Assembly: GCF_900091595.1 (NCBI RefSeq)
Contig: NZ_FMCW01000013.1
Span: 1-64,000, forward strand
Length of the DNA: 64,000 nucleotides
Direction: 5' to 3'
Origin: Micromonospora haikouensis
GTDB taxonomy: Bacteria > Actinomycetota > Actinomycetes > Mycobacteriales > Micromonosporaceae
In this document: one piece after another, positions 13,778-35,702 of the stretch
How positions within the stretch are numbered: position 1 is the stretch's first letter
Layout: each line of letters opens with the position of its first letter
The notes under the pieces: generated by a model
The model's database searches: none
What the model saw: the letters and a program-made list of their open reading frames with translations, nothing else
What the model was told of the DNA's origin: nothing
Program-made: the position numbers and the translations under genes

Positions 13778-15859
13778 TCACGGGGTGGTCAGGTCGAACC
13801 GGCGGACGGTGACCGCGCCGCCGAGCGCCTGGGTGGCGTAGTTGAAGATCGCGAACCGGTAGCCCATGAAGAACTGCCAGGCGTTGTTCAACGTCAGCGC
13901 GTTGCCCAGCGGGACGAAGTTCACCCCGTCGGTGCTGTAGGAGAAGGACGCCTGCCGCCCGCTGCCGGGCCTGATGTCGGCCTTGGCCCGCAACCAGATC
14001 CGGCCGCCGCTGACCGCCGCGCTGGCGATCTCGGTGCCGGTGCTGGTGGTCCGCCAACTGCTGTCCATGGTGAGGCCGTTGGTCATCACCACCCGGGTGG
14101 CCCCGTTGTCCCGGCGTACGCCGATCCAGGCCGAGGAGTCGCGGAGCATGGCCAGCCCGGAGCGGTCGCCGTCGCGCATGGTCGAGTAGTCCAGCTCGAT
14201 GGTGGCCGTGGAGGTGGGCCCCTGGATGCGCCGGGTCGCGGTGTTACGGGCGCTGTAGAGGTCGTTGGTGACCGTGGCCGTCTGCAGGCGCAGGCCGCTG
14301 CCGGCCGACCACTTCGTGTTGTCCGGGTTGTGGTTCCACTCCCAGTGCGGGCTCAGCGTCGTGCTGGTGAAGGTGTCCGCGCCGGTCATCGGCGCGACCG
14401 GGCGGGCCGGCAGCGGCGACGGGTAGCTGCTGCCCCAGGCGCCGTTGACGGTCTGGATCTGCGGCCAGCCGTCGGCCGTCCAGGTGATCGGCGCGAGCGC
14501 CGGCACCCGGCCACCCGGGTACGCGTCGACGAACGCCATGTAGTACCACTGGCCGTTCTGGGTCTGCACCAGGCCGCCCTGGTGCGGCACGCCGCCGCCG
14601 GAGATCGGGCCGGGCATGTTCAGCAGCACCTGGCGCGTCTCGTACGGGCCCCAGGGGCTGGTCGAGCGCAGGATGTACTGCCCGTTGGCCGGCTTGGTGA
14701 CGAAGATGTAGTAGTAGCCGTTGCGCTTGTAGAACCGCGAGCCCTCCAGCGTGCCGATGTTCGACGGCGTGGTGTACACCTGCTGCGTGCGCACCTGGCT
14801 CAGGCCGTCCGCCGACAGCTGCGCCACGTGCAGGGTGCTGTTGCCGTACGCGACGTACATCGTGTCGTTGTCGTCGACGAGCAGGCCCGCGTCGTAGTAG
14901 CAGTTGTTGATCTCGGAGCGCTTCTGCCAGGTGCCGCTGACCGAGGTCGACGTGTACACGTACGACTTGTTGAAGTCGATGCAGCCGATCCAGTAGAACG
15001 TGCCGTTGCTGGCGCGGTAGTTGAGCGTCGACGCCCAGATGCCGTTGACGTAGGCCCGGGAGGTGGAGCTGGGCAGGTCGTACTTGGTGCCGAAGTCCAG
15101 CCGGGGCACCGAGTGGCCGGCGAACTCCCAGTTGACCAGGTCGTACGAGCGCAGCACGGGCGCGCCCGGGGAGTAGTGCATGGTGGACGAGGAGAGGTAG
15201 TAGGCGTCACCGACGCGGATGATGTCGACGTCGGCGAAGTCCTGCCACAGGACCGGGTTGGTGTAGCTGGAGCCGCCCGGGTTGCCGCCGTCGCCGACGC
15301 GGACGAGCTGCCACTGCTGGTTGTTGCCGCCCCAGTCGGCGTACTGCACCACGTTGCCGCCGTCGGCGGTCGAGGCGTTCTGGATCTCCACGGCCTTGTT
15401 GGAGTGCCGGGCGATCAACCGCACGTACCCGTCCGCGGAGTCCGCCAGCCGGAACTGCTGGTTGGTGCCGTTGGCGTCCGACCACTGCACCACCGCCGCG
15501 CCGTCGGCCGTCGACGCGCCGGAGACGTCCAGCACCTTGCCCGAGTGCCGCGACTTCAGCCGGTAGTAGCCGCCACCGGAGTCCACGAACTGCCACTGCT
15601 GCCAGGCGCCGTCGTTGCGCGTCCACTGGGTGATCCGCGCCCCGTCGTTGGTCGCCTGGTTGTACAGGTCCAACGCCTTGCCGCTGTTGCGGTTCACCAA
15701 CACGTACGACGCGGTGGTGTCCACCGTCGCGGCCACGGCCGCCGACGGCACCACCGCGACGATCCCGGCGCCGAGCAGCATCGCCAGCATGGCGGCGGCG
15801 ACCCGGGGCAACCGGCCACGCCGTCGCGCGCCCGGCACGACCTGTTCGATGAGTGCCAT
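13778..15859 (-). CDS. Secreted RICIN-GH43 glycosidase with C-terminal lectin-like domain
   Basis: The protein is 693 aa. Residues 1-44 are a signal peptide (SAAVAA cut). A RICIN/CBM13 lectin follows (about 45-200; repeated NSGKALDL, HSGKVLDV, HSNKAVEI and QQW/QQF blades). The GH43 propeller comes next: FADVDIIR (base Asp), DAGLLVDD (Asp), GTLEGSRFY (acid Glu). The last 190 residues are a concanavalin-like beta-sandwich as in beta-xylosidase-type GH43 enzymes. AAGGAGGG precedes the ATG. Two operators lie in its promoter. The lectin DNA is almost identical to that of the esterase gene at 16116-17519. Confidence 0.9.
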   Translation of the reverse strand: MALIEQVVPGARRRGRLPRVAAAMLAMLLGAGIVAVVPSAAVAATVDTTASYVLVNRNSGKALDLYNQATNDGARITQWTRNDGAWQQWQFVDSGGGYYRLKSRHSGKVLDVSGASTADGAAVVQWSDANGTNQQFRLADSADGYVRLIARHSNKAVEIQNASTADGGNVVQYADWGGNNQQWQLVRVGDGGNPGGSSYTNPVLWQDFADVDIIRVGDAYYLSSSTMHYSPGAPVLRSYDLVNWEFAGHSVPRLDFGTKYDLPSSTSRAYVNGIWASTLNYRASNGTFYWIGCIDFNKSYVYTSTSVSGTWQKRSEINNCYYDAGLLVDDNDTMYVAYGNSTLHVAQLSADGLSQVRTQQVYTTPSNIGTLEGSRFYKRNGYYYIFVTKPANGQYILRSTSPWGPYETRQVLLNMPGPISGGGVPHQGGLVQTQNGQWYYMAFVDAYPGGRVPALAPITWTADGWPQIQTVNGAWGSSYPSPLPARPVAPMTGADTFTSTTLSPHWEWNHNPDNTKWSAGSGLRLQTATVTNDLYSARNTATRRIQGPTSTATIELDYSTMRDGDRSGLAMLRDSSAWIGVRRDNGATRVVMTNGLTMDSSWRTTSTGTEIASAAVSGGRIWLRAKADIRPGSGRQASFSYSTDGVNFVPLGNALTLNNAWQFFMGYRFAIFNYATQALGGAVTVRRFDLTTP
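15360..15602 (-). repeat. RICIN-module repeat, copy 1
   Basis: These 243 bp match 17011-17253 at a constant offset of 1651 with two visible mismatches, inside two different enzymes. It encodes the middle and last lectin blades. Confidence 0.9.
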
Positions 15860-15912
15860 GTCCCTCCTTCGTGGACGGTCGACGGACGGCCAAGGCCGTC
15901 GACACCAACTCC

Positions 15913-15926
15913 TGTTAGCGCTCACA
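15913..15926 (-). promoter_or_regulatory. LacI-family operator 3a, TGTTAGCGCTCACA
   Basis: One of two operators 28 bp apart centre to centre, upstream of the RICIN-GH43 gene. It lies just downstream of the predicted transcription start, where a bound repressor would also block elongation. Confidence 0.68.
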
Positions 15927-15938
15927 TCGAGCACATTG

Positions 15939-15967
15939 ACTGTGGGCGATAACACTCCGGACGTCAA
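15939..15967 (-). promoter_or_regulatory. Promoter with operator 3b (TGTGGGCGATAACA) in its spacer
   Basis: TTGACG (15962-15967) and CACAGT (15939-15944) are 17 nt apart on the minus strand, with operator 15941-15954 between and over the -10. The layout is the same as at 2782-2811 and 17709-17737. Confidence 0.6.
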
Positions 15968-16115
15968 GCCGTAACATTCGCCGGGCCCTCGGTCGACGGG
16001 GCGTGGGAACGCGCACACCGCGAGCCCACCGGCGACGGCCACGGCCGGGGGCCGCCCGGCGGTCGGCATGACCCGCCGGGCGGCCCGTCACGGCCCGTTC
16101 ACTGCAACGGCCCGG

Positions 16116-17519
16116 TCACTGGAACTGCGTGATGAAGCTCCACGCCGTCGCGGGGACCCAGGTCCGGGCTCCGCTGTCGCCTCCCGCGCCGTCCTGGGGC
16201 GCGGCGATGTGGCCACCGTCGAAGGCGGCCCAGACCACCGGGTACCCCGAGCGGCAGCCGGAGTAGGTGGTGACGACGTGGGTCAGGCTGCCCGCCGACG
16301 GCTCGCGGGGCGACTGCGGGGTGCAGCCGTTGTTGGCGACGAACCGGTCGCGCAGGGCACGCCCGCTGGCGGGGTTGTCACCGATGCCGTGCACGCCCAG
16401 GTACGCGACGGGCTGGGTGCCGCCGCTGCAGCCGCTGAGCGTGCCCGGGGAGGACTGCACCACGACCGCGCGGAAGATGTTCGGGCGGGAGCAGGCCAGG
16501 GAGAAGCTCATCGCGCCGCCGTAGCTGAACCCGATGGAGAAGCGCTGGCGCGGGTTGACGCAGAGCGCCCCCTCGATCCGGCTGAGCATGTTGTCGACGA
16601 AGGTGACGTCCTCGCCGCCGGCGTTGGCCCAGCCGTTGTCGATGCCCTGCGGGGCGACGAAGATCGTGGAGTTGTTCGCCAGCCGCTGGAGCCCGTAGTA
16701 GGACCAGGTGTTGCGGTCCACGGTCTGACCGGTGTCCACGTCGACCGCCGTGCCGCCCCACCAGTGGAACCCGAAGACCAGGCGGTACGGGGTGTTCTGG
16801 TTGTAGTTGGCCGGGATCCGCAGGATGAAGGTGCGGTTCTTGCCGCCGCTGGAGATGGTGTGCGTGCCGCTGGCGATGCCCGGCGCCTTGCCGCAGCCGG
16901 CGGTGCCGTTGCCCGGCGGCGGCGTGGTCGGCGTGGTGCCGCCGTCGACGCGGACGAGCTGCCACTGCTGGTTAGACCCGTTCCAGTCGGCGTACTGGAC
17001 GACGTTCGCGCCGTCGGCGGTCGAGGCGTTCTGGATCTCCACGGCCTTGTTGGAGTGCCGGGCGATCAACCGCACGTAGCCGTCCGCGGAGTCCGCCAGC
17101 CGGAACTGCTGGTTGGTGCCGTTGACGTCCGACCACTGCACCACCGCCGCGCCGTCGGCCGTCGACGCGCCGGAGACGTCCAGCACCTTGCCCGAGTGCC
17201 GCGACTTCAGCCGGTAGTAGCCGCCACCGGAGTCCACGAACTGCCACTGCTGCTGGTTGCCGTTGTTACGCGTCCACTGGGTGATCCGCGCCCCGTCGTT
17301 CGTGGCGAGGTTGTACAGGTCCAGAGCCTTGTTGCTGTTGCGGTTGAGCAGCACGTACCAGGCGCCGGTGTCCACGGTCGCCGCGGCGGCCGGTGTCGAG
17401 TTCACCGCGACCACCGCGCCGCCCACCAGCACTGTCGCCGCGGCCGCGGCCGTGACCCGGGCCAGCCACCCGCGTCGTCGGAACGACGCGGGTGACAGGA
17501 GCCCTGCGAGAGCAACCAT
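16116..17519 (-). CDS. Secreted RICIN-linked CE1/PHB-depolymerase-type esterase
   Basis: The protein is 467 aa. The signal peptide ends at TPAAAA (about residue 45). A RICIN lectin (about 46-195) is followed by a TPTTPPP linker. The esterase domain (from about 215) has GFHWWGGTA as oxyanion region, GFSYGGA as nucleophile elbow and DGGHIAAP with the catalytic His. This domain resembles feruloyl/acetyl-xylan esterases of the LpqC/CE1 group, so it probably removes ester side groups from plant xylans that the GH43 enzymes then attack. GGAGG lies 5 nt before the ATG; a start 32 codons upstream is open but has no such site. Confidence 0.87.
   Translation of the reverse strand: MVALAGLLSPASFRRRGWLARVTAAAAATVLVGGAVVAVNSTPAAAATVDTGAWYVLLNRNSNKALDLYNLATNDGARITQWTRNNGNQQQWQFVDSGGGYYRLKSRHSGKVLDVSGASTADGAAVVQWSDVNGTNQQFRLADSADGYVRLIARHSNKAVEIQNASTADGANVVQYADWNGSNQQWQLVRVDGGTTPTTPPPGNGTAGCGKAPGIASGTHTISSGGKNRTFILRIPANYNQNTPYRLVFGFHWWGGTAVDVDTGQTVDRNTWSYYGLQRLANNSTIFVAPQGIDNGWANAGGEDVTFVDNMLSRIEGALCVNPRQRFSIGFSYGGAMSFSLACSRPNIFRAVVVQSSPGTLSGCSGGTQPVAYLGVHGIGDNPASGRALRDRFVANNGCTPQSPREPSAGSLTHVVTTYSGCRSGYPVVWAAFDGGHIAAPQDGAGGDSGARTWVPATAWSFITQFQ
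17011..17253 (-). repeat. RICIN-module repeat, copy 2
   Basis: Partner of 15360-15602 (two mismatches seen in 243 bp). Flanking lectin sequence on both sides is clearly more diverged, so the identity has sharp edges. Confidence 0.9.
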
Positions 17520-29138: not shown

Positions 29139-32100
29139 CTAGCCGGACGAGGGGACCGGGGAGAGAACGGCGAGCAGCTTCCCGATCCGATCGGCGCCCG
29201 GCTGGTGTCCGGTCGCGGCGTGGGACTGCGCGGCGAGCCGCGCGCTGTGCCAGGCGGTGGCCCGGTCGCCGGCCCGGTACGCGGCTGCGGCGCGGGCGGC
29301 GAGCGCCCGGCCTTCGAGGAGCCGGTAACCGCACTGCCGCGCGATGGAGAGCGCCGCACGGCACCAGGACGGCGCCGCGGGCTCGTCGACCTCGGCGAGG
29401 CTGACGATGATGTCGGCCTCGATGTAGCGGTCCGCGGACGCGCGGGCGTGCGTCAACGCCTCCAACAGGAGGCCGACCTTCCCGTCGACGAGGCCCAGGA
29501 CGTGGAGTGCGACCGCTTCGAGCCGGGGCTCGGCCGGCTCGCGCGCCATGTCGAGCGCCTGACGGGCGAGCGCCGCCGCGTGCGCGTCGTCGCCGCGGTC
29601 GTGGTGCACCCGCGCCAGCGCGCACAGTGCGGTGGCCCGGCCCCGGCTGCCCGTCTGCTCGTGCAGCTCCACCGCGGTGGTCAACGTCCGCGCCGCCTCG
29701 TCGAGGCGGCCGAGAAGGTGGTAGACCGCGCCCAGGTTGTTCAGGATGAGCGCGCGGCTGCACACCGACCTGTTCTGGTCGGCCAGGGTGAGCGCCGCGT
29801 GGTGGTGGTTCGCCGCTTCGCTGAGCCGCCCGAGGTCGGCGCAGACCAGTCCGAGGTTGTTGTGGTTGACGGCGACGCCGGCCGTGCGGCGGGTGCGGCG
29901 GTTCAGCTCCAGCGCCTGTTCCATGACCCGCAGGGCTTCACGCGGCTGGCCGGTCATCCGGAAGACCGGGCCCAGGTTGCCCAGCGCCGCCGCCTGCCCG
30001 TCGTGCCATCCCGACCGGTTCGCCGAGCGCAGCGCCAGCCGGTAGTCGTCGGTCGCCTCCGGGAACCGTTCGAGACGCCAGTTCAGGGCCGCGAGGCTCA
30101 GGCGGGCCGCCGCCTCGGCCTGCTCGTGACGCGCGGCCTGGGCCGCGGTGAGGCCGAGCCGGGCGACCTCGGACCATTCCGCGGTGTGCATGCCCAGCCA
30201 CAGGTATCCCCGCAGCGCGTCCGCCAGCGCCCAGGCGTACGCGTGCAGTCCCCGGCGGGTCGCGTGCCGGGTCGCGGCGACGAGGTTGTGGCGTTCCGCG
30301 TCGAGCCAGGCGAGAGCGTCGACGTGGCTGGCGAACCGCAGGGGACGGGCGGGGACGGGCAGCTGCAGGGGCACGCGGAGCACCTGCGGGCACAACCGGT
30401 CGGCCGCGGAGTGCACGCTGAACAGGTACCAGGAGAGCAGGTCGGCCAACGTCCGCCGGTTGTCGTCGAGTGCCGCGAGCCCGACGACGTAACGGCCGAG
30501 CAGGTCGTGGGTGCCGAAGCGACCCGGCGTCCGCTCGTGCACCAGGTGCGCGTCGGCGAGGCTGGCGAGCATCCCGGCCGCCTCCGCGGTCGTACAGCCC
30601 ATCCTCGCGGCGGCCGACTCGGCTGTCACGTCGGCGCCGGGCACGAGGCCGAACAGCCGGAAGAGCCGCTGCAGTCGCGGCGGCAGGGTCCGATAGGAGG
30701 CGGCGAACGCCGACCGCACCGCGATCTGCTCGTCCTCGCGTACGGCCAGCATGGTCAGCGGGTCGCCGGCGCGGAGCCGGGTCAGGTAGTCGCTGATCGT
30801 CTCGTGCGGACGGGTCTGCAGGTCCGCCGCGGCGATGCGCAGCGCCAGCGGAAGGCCGGCGCAGTCCCGGGCCAGCTCCGCGAGCGCGGCCTCCTGCCCG
30901 GTGATCCGGTCCGCGCCGATGACGCGGGCCAGCAGCTCCGTGGCCTCCCCGGGCGCGAGCACGTCCAGCGACAACCGCTGCGCGTCGTGCCGGGTGGCCA
31001 GCCCGCCGAGGCGGCCCCGGCTGGTCACGATCACCAGGCAGCCGGCGCCGCCGGGTAGCAGCGGCCGGACGTGCGCCGTGTCCCGGGCGTTGTCGAGGAC
31101 GAACAGCATCCGCCGGTCCGCGACCACGCTCCGGTAGAGGTTCGCGGCCTCGTCGACGTCGTCGGGGACCTGCGCGGGCGGCACGCCGAGCGCGCGGAGG
31201 CAGCGCGACACCGCGTCCAGCGGCGTGAGCGGCTCCCCGGGCGAGTAGCCGCGCAGGTCGAGGAAGAGCTGCCCGCCGTCGAACACGGGCCGCACGCGGT
31301 GCGCCCACCGGACCGCCAGTGCCGTCTTGCCGACCCCGGCGGTGCCGATGATCGCGACGACCGCCAGGGCGGCGCTCCGCCGGGCCCGGTCCAGCATCGC
31401 GTCCAGTTCGGCGAGCGCATCGACGCGGCCGGTGAAGGTCGACAGGCCGGCGGGCAGTTGCGCCGGGCGCAGGCCCGGTCCGGTGTCCCGGGCGGCGGGC
31501 GCGGTCGGGGCGGGCGCGGGCCCGGTCGGCGGGACCTGCTGCCGCAGCAGCCGCAGGTGGGTCTCCGCGAGCCGCCCGCCCGGCTCGACGCCCAGCTCGT
31601 CGGCGAGCCGGCGGCGGGCCCGCTCGAACACCCGCAGCGCCTCGGCCTGGTGCCCCGCCCCCGCCAGGGCCGTCATCAGCCGTACGACGAGGCCCTCGTG
31701 CCACGGGTCGGCGGCCACCAGCCTGCGCAGCGGCGCCACCGCCTCGGCGTGCCGGCCGAGCGCGAACTCGGCGTCGAACAGGTCCTCGGACGCGGCGAGC
31801 CGCCTGTCGTGCAGGCTGGCAGCGGCCCCCGGCACGAAGACCGCTGACGCGCCCGCGAGCGCCGGGCCGCGCCACAACGCCAGCGCCTGGCGCAACAGGC
31901 CGGCGGCCGGCTCGTGCTCGCCGGCATCGGCGTGCCGGCGGGCAGCCGCGACGAGGCCGGAGAAGACCCGCGTGTCCAGGTCGTCGCCGTCGAGATCGAG
32001 ACGGTACCCGCCGGATTCCGAGAAGATCATTTCCGGCAGGTCGGCCGCGCGGGTCAGTTGCCGCAGGCGGGAGACGCACACCTGGACCTGCGCGCGCGCC

Positions 32101-32270
32101 CGTGCCGGCGGCGCCCCGCCCCACAGCGCCTCGGCCACCTGTTCCGCCGACACCAGCACATTCGCATTCAGCAGCAGATAGGCCAGCACGGCGCGCTGTT
32201 GGGGCCGGCCCAACGGCATCCGCTCGCCCCGCACCACGGCCTCGACCGGACCGAGTAGGCGCCATCTCAT
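29139..32270 (-). CDS. AfsR/SARP-family pathway regulator (BTAD, NB-ARC, TPR)
   Basis: The protein is 1043 aa. Residues 1-95 are an OmpR-type winged helix (MPLGRPQQRAVLAYLLLNANVLVS), 100-245 the BTAD domain, and 280-560 an NTPase domain with P-loop GTAGVGKT (309-316) and MLFVLDNARD as Walker B. The C-terminal 450 residues are TPR repeats (ALGNLGPVFRMTGQPREAL and similar). This is the full-length AfsR layout known to switch on secondary metabolism. It is divergent from the secreted triple-repeat protein with 145 bp between them. Its targets may be the glycosyltransferase, P450 and dioxygenase genes around it. Confidence 0.93.
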   Translation of the reverse strand: MRWRLLGPVEAVVRGERMPLGRPQQRAVLAYLLLNANVLVSAEQVAEALWGGAPPARARAQVQVCVSRLRQLTRAADLPEMIFSESGGYRLDLDGDDLDTRVFSGLVAAARRHADAGEHEPAAGLLRQALALWRGPALAGASAVFVPGAAASLHDRRLAASEDLFDAEFALGRHAEAVAPLRRLVAADPWHEGLVVRLMTALAGAGHQAEALRVFERARRRLADELGVEPGGRLAETHLRLLRQQVPPTGPAPAPTAPAARDTGPGLRPAQLPAGLSTFTGRVDALAELDAMLDRARRSAALAVVAIIGTAGVGKTALAVRWAHRVRPVFDGGQLFLDLRGYSPGEPLTPLDAVSRCLRALGVPPAQVPDDVDEAANLYRSVVADRRMLFVLDNARDTAHVRPLLPGGAGCLVIVTSRGRLGGLATRHDAQRLSLDVLAPGEATELLARVIGADRITGQEAALAELARDCAGLPLALRIAAADLQTRPHETISDYLTRLRAGDPLTMLAVREDEQIAVRSAFAASYRTLPPRLQRLFRLFGLVPGADVTAESAAARMGCTTAEAAGMLASLADAHLVHERTPGRFGTHDLLGRYVVGLAALDDNRRTLADLLSWYLFSVHSAADRLCPQVLRVPLQLPVPARPLRFASHVDALAWLDAERHNLVAATRHATRRGLHAYAWALADALRGYLWLGMHTAEWSEVARLGLTAAQAARHEQAEAAARLSLAALNWRLERFPEATDDYRLALRSANRSGWHDGQAAALGNLGPVFRMTGQPREALRVMEQALELNRRTRRTAGVAVNHNNLGLVCADLGRLSEAANHHHAALTLADQNRSVCSRALILNNLGAVYHLLGRLDEAARTLTTAVELHEQTGSRGRATALCALARVHHDRGDDAHAAALARQALDMAREPAEPRLEAVALHVLGLVDGKVGLLLEALTHARASADRYIEADIIVSLAEVDEPAAPSWCRAALSIARQCGYRLLEGRALAARAAAAYRAGDRATAWHSARLAAQSHAATGHQPGADRIGKLLAVLSPVPSSG

Positions 32271-32415
32271 GCAATCCCCACCTCAACAGATCGATCACAT
32301 TTTATTCGCCGAAGCCGGGGTGGCTATCGGACGGCTAGCCGATGGCAAGGCGGCCCGCGCAACCTCGATGGAAAGGCCGGGCGGATGACCCGGATCAATC
32401 GGTAAAGGAGTTTCA

Positions 32416-33372
32416 ATGGGAGGAAGAATCCGCGCCGTCGTGGTCGCCGCGGCGGCACTCGGCCTGGTCATCGCGGCAGCCGGCGTCGCACAGGCCGACT
32501 CGTCGTCGCAGCCGTCGATGCGGGACGCACGGGCCGCCGCGACGGCCTCGGGTGAGCTCGGCGCCGCTGCGAAGGGCGGGTTCGGCACCGCCGCGACGTG
32601 GTTCACCGGGACGGTCGCGGCGGGCGGCACGCAGGGCTGGACCTGGACCAACGCCCCGGCCGACGCCGCCTACGTGGTCGGGTACAACCCGGTCGGCGCC
32701 ACCACCTCGTCCATGTGCCAGTTCGAGACGATCAGCACCCGGTACGTCCAGCTCTGGGGCGGCCAGCGGCAGTTCCAGTTCACCCTGAAGAACGTCGGCT
32801 CGATCGCCTGCGGCGCGACGGTCCAGCTCGCGGCGGTGAGCAGCTCGGTCGCGACCTCCACCGGCGGGGTCAGCCCGGGTGGCACCCAGACGCACCTGTG
32901 GAACATCCCCTGGCACACCAACTGGGTGGTGGGACTCAACCCGAGTGGCGCCACCAGCTCGGCGGCCTGCCAGTTCCAGGTGACCCGCACCTGGTTCGTG
33001 CAGCCGGCCGCAGCGGGCGCGGTCCGCCAGCTCTACGTGGAAGTCAAGAACGTGGGGACCATCGCCTGCCAGACCGACATCCGGCTCGGCTCCACCGCCG
33101 TCTCCTACAACTTCACCATCGCCACCATCGCCTCCGGCACCACCTGGTCCACGGTCTGGTTCAACGCGAACCCCGTCACCTCGGTCTACCTGGTCGGCGC
33201 GTCACCGCAGGGCAGCGCGCCCATCACCTGCCAGTTCGAGGTCACCCGCATGATCTATCGGCAGAGCATCAACAGCGACGGATCGTCCCAGCGCCAGATC
33301 CTGATCTCGTTCAAGAACCTCGGCGGCACCACCTGCGGCGGGCTCGCCGAGCTACAGACCATCGCCGCCTGA
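32416..33372 (+). CDS. Secreted protein with three tandem beta-rich repeats
   Basis: The protein is 318 aa. The signal peptide (residues 1-28) ends AGVAQA. A 30-residue linker leads to three repeats of about 85 aa (about 59-143, 145-228, 230-316). Each has a Trp-rich strand (TQGWTWTN; TQTHLWNIPWHTN; TWSTVWFNAN), a VVGxNPxGAxxSxxCQFE block and a later KNVGSIAC or KNLGGTTC block. Each repeat thus has two Cys that could pair as a disulfide. AAAGGAG fixes the start. I do not know the family. Being divergent from the AfsR regulator suggests common control. Confidence 0.85.
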   Translation: MGGRIRAVVVAAAALGLVIAAAGVAQADSSSQPSMRDARAAATASGELGAAAKGGFGTAATWFTGTVAAGGTQGWTWTNAPADAAYVVGYNPVGATTSSMCQFETISTRYVQLWGGQRQFQFTLKNVGSIACGATVQLAAVSSSVATSTGGVSPGGTQTHLWNIPWHTNWVVGLNPSGATSSAACQFQVTRTWFVQPAAAGAVRQLYVEVKNVGTIACQTDIRLGSTAVSYNFTIATIASGTTWSTVWFNANPVTSVYLVGASPQGSAPITCQFEVTRMIYRQSINSDGSSQRQILISFKNLGGTTCGGLAELQTIAA

Positions 33373-33438: not shown

Positions 33439-34050
33439 CTATCCGTGGGACGGGGTCGCGTGGACGCCCGTGCCGTACTCGTGTCGCAGGCCGCCGTCTG
33501 CGATCAACCGCCCGGCGTGCGGCAACACGGGGTGCGAGCCGATCCTGCTCACGGCCATCCGGCGGATCACCCGGTTCAGTCTGCCGGAGGCGCTGGTGAC
33601 CGCCGCCCAGTCCCACGCGGCGGGATCGCCCAGGCGCGGTACGGTCGCCGCCCACGTCGCGGCGCGCTTGGCCGAATTGTGGTTGGTGTGGCTCCAGCGC
33701 AGCTCCCGCGTCCCGAATGGTCCGCCGTAGTAGAGCTGGACGAGCCCCCAGCCTTCGCAGCAGTATCGAAACGTCGGATCTCCCGGCGAATCTGCGGACA
33801 GGTCGATCCGACTGACCGTCGGCTCCGGCCCGGAGCCGACGACGAACAACTCCAGGTGTCGTCCCTGCGGCGCCGCCGCAATGTCGGCGGCAGCCCGGAA
33901 CTCACGCAGCTCGCGGCCCGGCTCCGAGTCGGACTCGAAGACCCGGAACAGGCCCAGCTCGAAGACGGACTCGACGACCGCGGCCCAATCCTCGTCGGCC
34001 GCGTAGAAGTTCAGATTCGGCACCAGCCGATTATCCCGATCGACCGGCAT
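33439..34050 (-). CDS. Conserved hypothetical actinobacterial protein
   Basis: The protein is 203 aa. NLNFYAADEDWAAVVESVF, RVFESDSEPGRELREF, GLVQLYYGGPF and SHTNHNSAKRA resemble a family of uncharacterised soluble proteins seen in streptomycetes and relatives. No signal peptide or membrane segment. The ATG start is weak in that no good ribosome site precedes it. The frame continues without a stop from the upstream glycosyltransferase remnant, so it may be translated as a read-through fusion. Function not known. Confidence 0.7.
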   Translation of the reverse strand: MPVDRDNRLVPNLNFYAADEDWAAVVESVFELGLFRVFESDSEPGRELREFRAAADIAAAPQGRHLELFVVGSGPEPTVSRIDLSADSPGDPTFRYCCEGWGLVQLYYGGPFGTRELRWSHTNHNSAKRAATWAATVPRLGDPAAWDWAAVTSASGRLNRVIRRMAVSRIGSHPVLPHAGRLIADGGLRHEYGTGVHATPSHG

Positions 34051-34199
34051 CGCCGGCCGCCGCGTCCACGCGACCGTGCGCGTCAGGCCAGCTCGATGAC
34101 GGGTCGGGTCAGGACCGCGGCGGCGGCCCACCGGCGATCCAGGGACGAAGCTGAGGTCGCCCGGCCGCGTGTGCCGGAGCGGCCCGAGGTTCAGTCCCC

Positions 34200-35435
34200 G
34201 TTTAAAAGCACCGCACCCGTCCCGTCCCGGGCACGGGCCTCGCCCGAGCTGCCCCAGGACCTGCACCACGTCCGCCGGGGACGGGGTGGCCGCGATCTCC
34301 TCCCGCAGCCGCTCGGCGGCATCCCGGATCTTGCCGTCCGTGAGCGCCGCGTCGACCGCCGACGCGATGGTGGCGGTGTCGGCCGTCGCGGCATCCAGCA
34401 TGGTGCCGGCCCCCGAGGCACTGAAGTTGAACGCCACGGCGGGCGTGTCCGAGGCCTGCGGCAGCATCACCTGCGGCACGCCGTAGCACGCCGCGGTGAG
34501 CACCGAGCCGGCGCCGCCCGCATTGACGACGGCGCCACACGATTCCAGGTACAGGTTGATCGGCACGTTGTCGGCCACGCGTACGTTGTCCGGCAGCGGG
34601 CCGAGGCGCTCCCGGTCCGCTCGCACCACCGCGAGGACGACCTGCGCGTCGCCAGCCGCCAGCGCGCCGACGACGCGGGCCAGGACGGTGTCGTCCGCGC
34701 CGAGCATCGTGGTCGTCGTGCCCCAGGTGACACACACCCGCGGGCGGGAGGGCGGCTCCAGGAGCCAGTCGGGGGCGGCGGCCGCGCCGTTGTGGGGGAC
34801 GAAACGGGTGGGGATCCGGCCGACGACGTCGGGCAGCTGCAGGCTGCCCGGCCACGGGTCGACCGTCCGCACCGGATGGTCGTCGCGGACCTCGACGCCG
34901 TACCGGTCGTACAGCTCGACCAGGCCGGGCGGCCACTGCTCCCGTTCGGCTCCGGTGGTCGGCTGCCCCTGCACGGGACACAGGCGGCGCAGCAGGTCGG
35001 GCCCCGTGAGGTGACGCACCAGCGGAACGCCCAGGGTCTGCGACAGCAGCGGGACGGCCAGCATCAGTGGATCGGTGACCACGAGGTCCGGCTCCCAACG
35101 CCGCGCGAAGCGCAGAAGGTCCGGCGCCATCACGGTGACCGTCTCGACGAGTGGCCGCAGCGACTCCTGCTGGATCCGGCGACGCTCGTCGACCGGCACG
35201 GCGGAGTCGAGGCTCTCCTTGTAACTCTGGGCCTGCTGTCTGTCGCTCAGCTGCTTCAGCATGTTGTAGCCGTGGCCGACCTCGACGGCGGGCAGCCCCA
35301 GGCCGACCGTCGCCTCGGTGAGCTCGGGCTGCGCGGCCACCCGCACCTCGTGACCGGCCGTGCGGCAGGCCCAGATCAGGGGGGCGAGTTGGTACAGGTG
35401 GGAGCGAACGCCATCGAGGTGAACAGAATACGCAC
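34200..35435 (-). pseudogene. GT1 glycosyltransferase (EryCIII/DesVII-like), frameshifted near its start
   Basis: The body is an activator-type antibiotic glycosyltransferase: SHLYQLAPLIWACRTAGHEVRVAAQPEL, VCVTWGTTTTML, and VNAGGAGSVLTAACYGVPQVMLP as the sugar-nucleotide site. The natural start is GTG at 35435 giving VRILFTSMAF, but the next residues RSHLYQL are in another frame. One missing base at about 35405-35407 (GCGTTCGC for GCGTTCCGC) explains it. At the other end, after SPADVVQVLGQLG, no stop occurs and the frame runs on into the 33439-34050 gene. The end coordinate is therefore approximate. Confidence 0.75.
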
Positions 35436-35702
35436 GGATTAACCTCGCATGGTTGTCGAGAGGACGCGGATCGACCGCTGCCGTGGGCCAACCCAGTACA
35501 GGGACGCTCCCTAAAACCTCGCTGAAAAGAACGGCCCGCGCGCCTCGCCCGCCGACGCCGCGTACGGGCCCGGGAGGACGCAGAACCCTCCACAAGCCAC
35601 AAAAGATACAGATGATGCAAATGCTTCAGAAGCTTATATCGAAGGATCAGTAGGTATCTACAGTAGCCTCCTCGCTACGATCCGTGACGGAAGGGGGCCG
35701 TG
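35436..35702. promoter_or_regulatory. AT-richer divergent promoter region
   Basis: Between the glycosyltransferase and P450 starts, 35590-35680 is markedly AT-rich for this genome and contains short dyads (CTTCAGAAG; GTAGGTATCTAC at 35651-35662). No gene is visible. It is a likely target for the nearby AfsR regulator. Confidence 0.4.

Follow-up and report, generated by a model that had tools for sequence, protein, structure and literature searches.

A putative large-SARP cassette with a probably exported three-domain protein in Micromonospora haikouensis

The window, that is, the whole stretch of 64,000 nucleotides of Micromonospora haikouensis DNA that was analysed (contig NZ_FMCW01000013.1), contains an open reading frame of 318 aa, which starts with ATG at 32416 and ends with a stop codon at 33370-33372. 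The gene encodes a probably exported protein with three domains and lies divergently to a gene for an AfsR-type regulator. The features of the locus are as follows.

29139-32270, minus strand: divergent AfsR-type large SARP of 1043 aa, the proposed activator (Trans_reg_C, BTAD, NB-ARC, TPR)
32321-32349, plus strand: proposed operator (the box), three heptamers at an 11-bp period, TGGCTAT-N4-CGGCTAG-N4-TGGCAAG (12/12 orthologue promoters)
32358-32365, plus strand: CGCAACCT (CGCArCCT), 8 bp past the last heptamer; probable -10 region, with CAACCT at 32360-32365 (12/12 orthologues)
32404-32410, plus strand: ribosome-binding site AAAGGAG (from the sequence)
32416-33372, plus strand: gene for the probably exported three-domain protein, 318 aa (orthologues 71-77% identical)
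32416-32496, plus strand: signal peptide, residues 1-27, ending AQA (read by eye)
32497-32586, plus strand: spacer, residues 28-57, with an RDARAAA segment common to the orthologues (alignment; low model confidence)
32587-32841, plus strand: domain 1, residues 58-142, with Cys101 and Cys132 (best conserved domain)
32842-33096, plus strand: domain 2, residues 143-227, with Cys185 and Cys218 (repeat alignment)
33097-33369, plus strand: domain 3, residues 228-318, with Cys272 and Cys307 (repeat alignment)

The N-terminus of the protein is a basic, hydrophobic leader, which was judged by eye to be a Sec-type signal peptide with A-Q-A at its end, and no membrane anchor was seen when the sequence was inspected in the same way. 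The leader makes it probable that the three-domain protein is exported, as the first-pass annotation of this DNA had claimed. The same annotation described three tandem repeats of about 85 residues, and this was confirmed. The pairwise local scores between the repeats were 156, 110, and 81, the means of the shuffled sequences were 27.6-29.8, and none of 1000 shuffles reached the score of any repeat pair. The protein contains six Cys residues, two per repeat. Of the two sequence blocks that had been assigned to every repeat, KNxGxxxC is present in all three, whereas an exact NPxGAxxSxxC is confined to repeats 1 and 2, repeat 3 having SPQGSAPITC.

None of the family collections searched claimed the protein. 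In Pfam, nothing scored above the cut-off, with CARDB (PF07705) at 15.3 bits against a gathering threshold of 22.7 and PLipase_C_C (PF05506) at 13.9 bits against 24.4. No match was obtained in NCBIfam or PADLOC, a single match with an E value of 0.083 was found in PHROGs, and among the PDB sequences there was none for the protein, the best E value of the profile search being 0.1. When 13 homologues were compared with Pfam at E values up to 1, faint echoes of PLipase_C_C appeared in six of them and of CARDB in three, the best E value, for PLipase_C_C, being 6.1e-4. The statement that the repeat belongs to no recognised family thus held for Pfam, NCBIfam, and the PDB-sequence families, and neither the Pfam copy nor the NCBIfam copy that was searched contains the domain family of this probably exported target.

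Fold prediction and a fold search with one repeat had been suggested in the first-pass annotation as a check. The prediction gave a six-stranded beta sandwich for domain 1 with a pLDDT of 85 (18 aligned domains from the window and L002-L006), and the search returned generic matches only. The model of the whole protein, built from 6 sequences, was weak (pLDDT 61). At E values up to 0.001, Foldseek found nothing in the PDB (best E 0.023 for the whole-protein model and 0.15 for the domain model) and, with the domain model, nothing in the viral library either (best E 0.0069). A second structural comparison of the domain model gave Z scores below 8 throughout (best 7.7), a level that the tool describes as common without kinship, at 5-14% identity. 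The matches included a Thermococcus subtilase domain (9ues_B; Z 7.7, rmsd 2.5, 74 aligned residues, 8% identity), a GOLD domain (7rrm_A; Z 7.5, rmsd 3.2, 76 aligned, 14%), and the Helix agglutinin (2ccv; Z 6.8, rmsd 3.0, 79 aligned, 6%). These PPC, GOLD, and H-type lectin beta sandwiches (PPC and H-type lectin being the family names that we take to apply) align over nearly the whole predicted domain, with no sequence match. The domain fold, as modelled, is a common kind of beta sandwich, and scores at this level do not assign it to a known fold family. Across 89 domains of the family, both Cys residues were present in 87 and both were absent in 2; a single Cys was never found, which is as expected for a disulfide. 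It is very probable that the domains are Cys-paired beta sandwiches. The term 'binding protein', also used in the first-pass annotation, is plausible in view of the model, since several binding domains are among the generic fold matches; we would give a binding role an even chance.

The gene is present in a single copy in its own genome (search at E values up to 1). In a search of close relatives, orthologues with 71-77% identity were found in Catellatospora, Catelliglobosispora, and three Micromonospora species. Among 200 genomes of the family, the domain profile matched 26, which represent 15 of the 44 genera; in the class it matched 2 of 394 genomes, and these belong to the genus of the window. 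Convincing matches in the samples of the phylum (296 genomes) and the order (249 genomes) were likewise confined to the genus, with 2 and 5 genomes. All these tallies include the own genome, the samples overlap, and 13-26 candidates were scored per genome, so that distant single-domain relatives may be missed. No convincing relative was found outside Micromonosporaceae in the class, order, and phylum samples, and none in plasmids, phages, or viral contigs. Five weak matches of 17-20 bits were obtained outside the genus in the phylum and order samples. Of these, L147 and L149 are 48-codon frames with stops, and the other three were inspected. L148 and L150 do not look like genes of the three-domain type, and in L151 a lipoprotein-like protein has a short motif, from Cys to Cys, in common with the family.

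The examination covered 34 family loci (the window, L006, and L049-L080), the profile search of the family having listed more, and 29 of the 34 encode exactly three domains. The exceptions are L058 with a single domain, L060 with a copy cut by a stop, L059 with a fragment, and L067 and L071 with two passing domains each. The single-domain form of L058 (8171-8569, minus strand) is 133 aa long with its leader and is convergent with an AfsR-like gene. The in-frame stop of L060 and the shortness of the L059 fragment mark them as degenerate copies, which suggests loss in some Micromonospora. In a tree of the 89 domains, the labels D1, D2, and D3 required 7 changes, where shuffling gave a mean of 44, and 26 of 29 D1 domains fell into one supported group, in an alignment with few columns and some long branches. 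As the position labels cluster so strongly, the triplication looks older than the spread of the family. Domain 1 is the most conserved, with a mean identity of 0.53, followed by domain 2 (0.44) and domain 3 (0.43).

The distribution bears on two other readings of the protein. The main rival, which we consider rather unlikely, is that the protein has a structural role in the cell envelope, the spore, or the extracellular matrix, where its domains would self-associate or coat hyphae instead of binding a foreign ligand, with a developmental regulator. The confinement of convincing relatives to one family of filamentous actinomycetes agrees with such a part, as do the tandem Cys-paired domains and the lack of an enzyme signature in Pfam and NCBIfam, but 26 of 200 family genomes, and an orthologue in 5 of 101 relatives, is a patchy occurrence for a core morphogenetic component, and the absence of a membrane anchor, as judged by eye, also speaks against it. 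Antagonism of other microbes by the exported protein, as an antibacterial or an inhibitor that the STAND regulator induces, would suit the patchy distribution, the diverged paralogues in some genomes, the lower conservation of domains 2 and 3 than of domain 1, and a rather high rough dN/dS (NG86, 0.23-0.78 against 10 orthologues, dS being unreliable at such GC content). We find this reading improbable, as no toxin or defence family was matched in Pfam, NCBIfam, or PADLOC and no immunity-like partner recurs in 32 neighbourhoods; on the same grounds, the toxin-like factor considered in the first-pass annotation is not supported. An extracellular binding protein is the reading that we prefer.

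The regulator encoded by 29139-32270 has the layout of a large SARP, with an OmpR-type DNA-binding domain and BTAD at the N-terminus, followed by NB-ARC and then TPR. Its scores were 33.7 bits for Trans_reg_C, 134 for BTAD, 39 for NB-ARC, and 87.7 for TPR_12, all above the cut-offs, which confirms the AfsR-type neighbour that had been noted earlier. With the AfsR equivalog NF053617, it reached 483.4 bits against a cut-off of 1430, and therefore it is AfsR-like and not AfsR. The regulator stands beside the target, in divergent orientation, at 10 of 12 orthologue loci. Of 101 genomes, the own genome included, 5 hold an orthologue of the regulator (at least 79% identical), and exactly these 5 hold one of the target (at least 72%). 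Among the matches listed, the next regulator by score had an identity of 45%, with up to 48% in shorter alignments, in a search at E values up to 1e-100 with 7 candidates scored per genome. The distances of regulator and target correlate moderately (Spearman 0.39 over 55 non-independent pairs), and at L065 a target with 75% identity adjoins a regulator with 50%.

Direct repeats at an 11-bp period, a trait of SARP operators, were found in all 12 orthologue promoters. The spacing from the 3' heptamer is 8 bp to CGCArCCT and 10 bp to the hexamer CArCCT. The 12 orthologue promoters show 0-3 mismatches of 17 to a consensus taken from the same 12, and CGCArCCT is present in each; all 22 other promoters of the family show 5-8 mismatches of 17, with no CGCArCCT at the corresponding place. 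A looser box pattern with up to 3 mismatches found 12 sites in ten genomes, against 0 for the reversed-pattern control. Eleven of the sites precede orthologues of the three-domain gene and one precedes the C35 gene described below; the ten genomes had been chosen for holding an orthologue, and what is informative is that almost no sites were found elsewhere. A stricter, different pattern gave 2 matches in the own genome (the window site and a weaker one at C30) and 2 control matches. The triple repeat of the window promoter is modestly unusual, with 29 of 2000 shuffles scoring as high, and that of L065 is not unusual (225 of 500); for five further promoters the numbers were 0, 0, 1, 12, and 21 of 500. 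The operator is lacking at 22 of the 34 family loci, so the function of the domain does not depend on the regulator 29139-32270.

In Catellatospora sp. KI3 and Catelliglobosispora koreensis, a box-bearing orthologue has no adjoining regulator, and the regulator is encoded elsewhere in the genome (68% and 65% identity, respectively); in the case of Catellatospora, this distant-encoded regulator adjoins a second target orthologue. Box-bearing orthologues with an unlinked regulator are what action in trans predicts. Control by an AfsR/SARP regulator, at first a guess from location, is now supported by the conserved putative operator, the co-occurrence, and the two unlinked cases. We hold with high confidence that the three-domain gene is subject to dedicated regulation by the divergent large SARP, and we infer that the activation is direct.

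Only three clusters recurred in more than four of the 32 gene-called neighbourhoods: the family (32), the AfsR-like genes (16), and, at 7 loci of which two are orthologue loci, a group of large exported proteins. Beyond the family and the AfsR-like genes, no cluster in these neighbourhoods was common to three or more orthologue loci. Elsewhere in the window, 13778-17432 encodes two predicted exported proteins of 693 and 438 aa, the starts of which presumably resemble ricin-type lectin repeats. Next to the three-domain gene lie an EryCIII-like glycosyltransferase gene (33439-35595, minus strand) and a P450 gene (35700-36887, plus strand). They would be the true targets if the locus were an accessory of a metabolite cluster, with the SARP controlling both enzymes and the exported protein a mere passenger, and biosynthetic clusters are what SARPs usually control, according to a review (PMC10972967). 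We give this reading very little credence. Within flanks of about 6-9 kb, the window is the only one of the 12 orthologue loci with the two enzyme genes beside the target, and in the own genome the box was found at the promoter of the three-domain gene and not at that of either enzyme. As the enzymes do not travel with the pair, they are placed outside the cassette. Counterparts with 29-35% identity occur at 3 non-orthologous loci; in L069 and L080, distant counterparts of both enzymes lie close to family members that are not orthologues.

The explanation that we favour, and consider fairly likely, is a two-gene cassette composed of a STAND-type large SARP and its sole, or nearly sole, target, an exported three-domain binding protein. 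By analogy with AfsR, the regulator would sense a cue through its NB-ARC/TPR part. Its SARP domains would then bind the heptamer array, which its conservation marks as a candidate operator, and recruit RNA polymerase to a weak promoter. The product would be exported, the signal peptide removed, and one disulfide formed per domain, in line with the observed co-conservation of the Cys residues. Outside the cell, the three beta-sandwich domains may act as a multivalent non-enzymatic binder of a glycan, a wall polymer, or a matrix ligand, and domain 1 may carry the core function.

The extra box site in the own genome (G000:C35) is flanked by a second AfsR-like gene and, in divergent orientation to it, by a gene (C35 46776-47645, corresponding to 8777-9646 of L095) for a probably exported 290-aa protein with three repeats and two Cys in each. 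This protein is unrelated in sequence to the window protein and has no Pfam match above the cut-off. Its orthologue at L100 likewise consists of three repeats, each containing two Cys; for every repeat pair, 0 of 500 shuffles reached the score. A pattern derived from three C35-type promoters was found in 4 of 101 genomes, and all four sites, of which only that of G054 is new beyond the promoters used for the pattern, lie just upstream of an 83-100% identical orthologue of the C35 protein gene. These orthologues are limited to the same 4 genomes, and homologues elsewhere reach at most 41%. The reversed pattern gave 11 matches in 8 genomes against 4 forward matches; the count is not above chance, and the argument is one of position. 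The N-terminus of an AfsR-like gene faces the C35-type gene in all four genomes. Among the 48 of 52 AfsR-like loci with an N-terminal match, the DNA-binding domains nearest to that of the window regulator are those of the Catelliglobosispora orthologue (69%) and of three C35-type regulators (53-55%), the rest being at most 46% identical. At 12 loci, the mismatches of the best box-like match numbered 4-6 of 20 for the three C35-type promoters and 6-9 for the nine others, ranges that touch.

A general rule by which the gene opposite an AfsR-like gene would encode an exported protein was not supported, as many of the 52 AfsR-like loci face other genes, and a crude signal-peptide rule flags only some of the divergent partners. 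The idea was kept for the box-bearing subgroup only, which the box at a loose threshold does not single out. At L106 (5201-6229) and L109, AfsR-like genes are divergent to genes of a third kind, coding for probably exported proteins of about 340 aa with 8 Cys; the L106 protein has no Pfam match, and the L106 promoter has no box. We tentatively propose, knowing that it may well fail, that Micromonospora and its relatives possess a subgroup of STAND-type large SARPs, with related DNA-binding domains and a triple-heptamer operator, which is dedicated one-to-one to exported proteins with three Cys-paired domains, and that at least two unrelated families occupy the exported slot. If true, this would be a modular inducible extracellular response and not antibiotic-cluster control.

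A literature search that combined AfsR, Micromonospora, and secreted or divergent partners found nothing; in one on large SARPs and secreted proteins, the 8 papers listed of 66 were, judged by title, all on plants, fungi, or plant pathogens. The rule for SARP operators given in PMC10936776 is that direct repeats are spaced 11 bp and that the 3' repeat lies 8 bp from the -10 region. The geometry of the window promoter agrees with it in the 11-bp period and would agree in the 8-bp distance if CGCArCCT is taken as the -10 element, whereas to the hexamer CArCCT the distance is 10 bp. The AfsR-afsS system of Streptomyces coelicolor, as outlined in PMC10936776 and PMC10972967, combines a large SARP bearing NB-ARC/NOD and TPR with an adjacent target, 11-bp direct repeats, and a weak promoter, and a similar arrangement is proposed here. 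The two differ in the target, which is the small sigma-factor-like AfsS there and an apparently exported three-domain protein here, and in the heptamers, which here number three and have another sequence; the window regulator also falls far below the AfsR equivalog (483 vs 1430 bits). In the case of PimR, three CGGCAAG-type heptamers with 4-bp spacers precede a unique target gene, according to PMC5930380. The PimR-pimM pair thus shares the three-heptamer, 4-bp layout and the unique target with the window, where the last heptamer is TGGCAAG, whereas PimR is a SARP-LAL acting on another regulator and the window target encodes a probably exported protein. In the review, SARPs are presented as switches of antibiotic clusters (PMC10972967); the large SARP of the window appears to have essentially one target, a probably exported protein. 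Inducer binding to AfsR is described as elusive in PMC10936776, and a single-output large-SARP system would be a convenient means of finding out what STAND-type SARPs sense.
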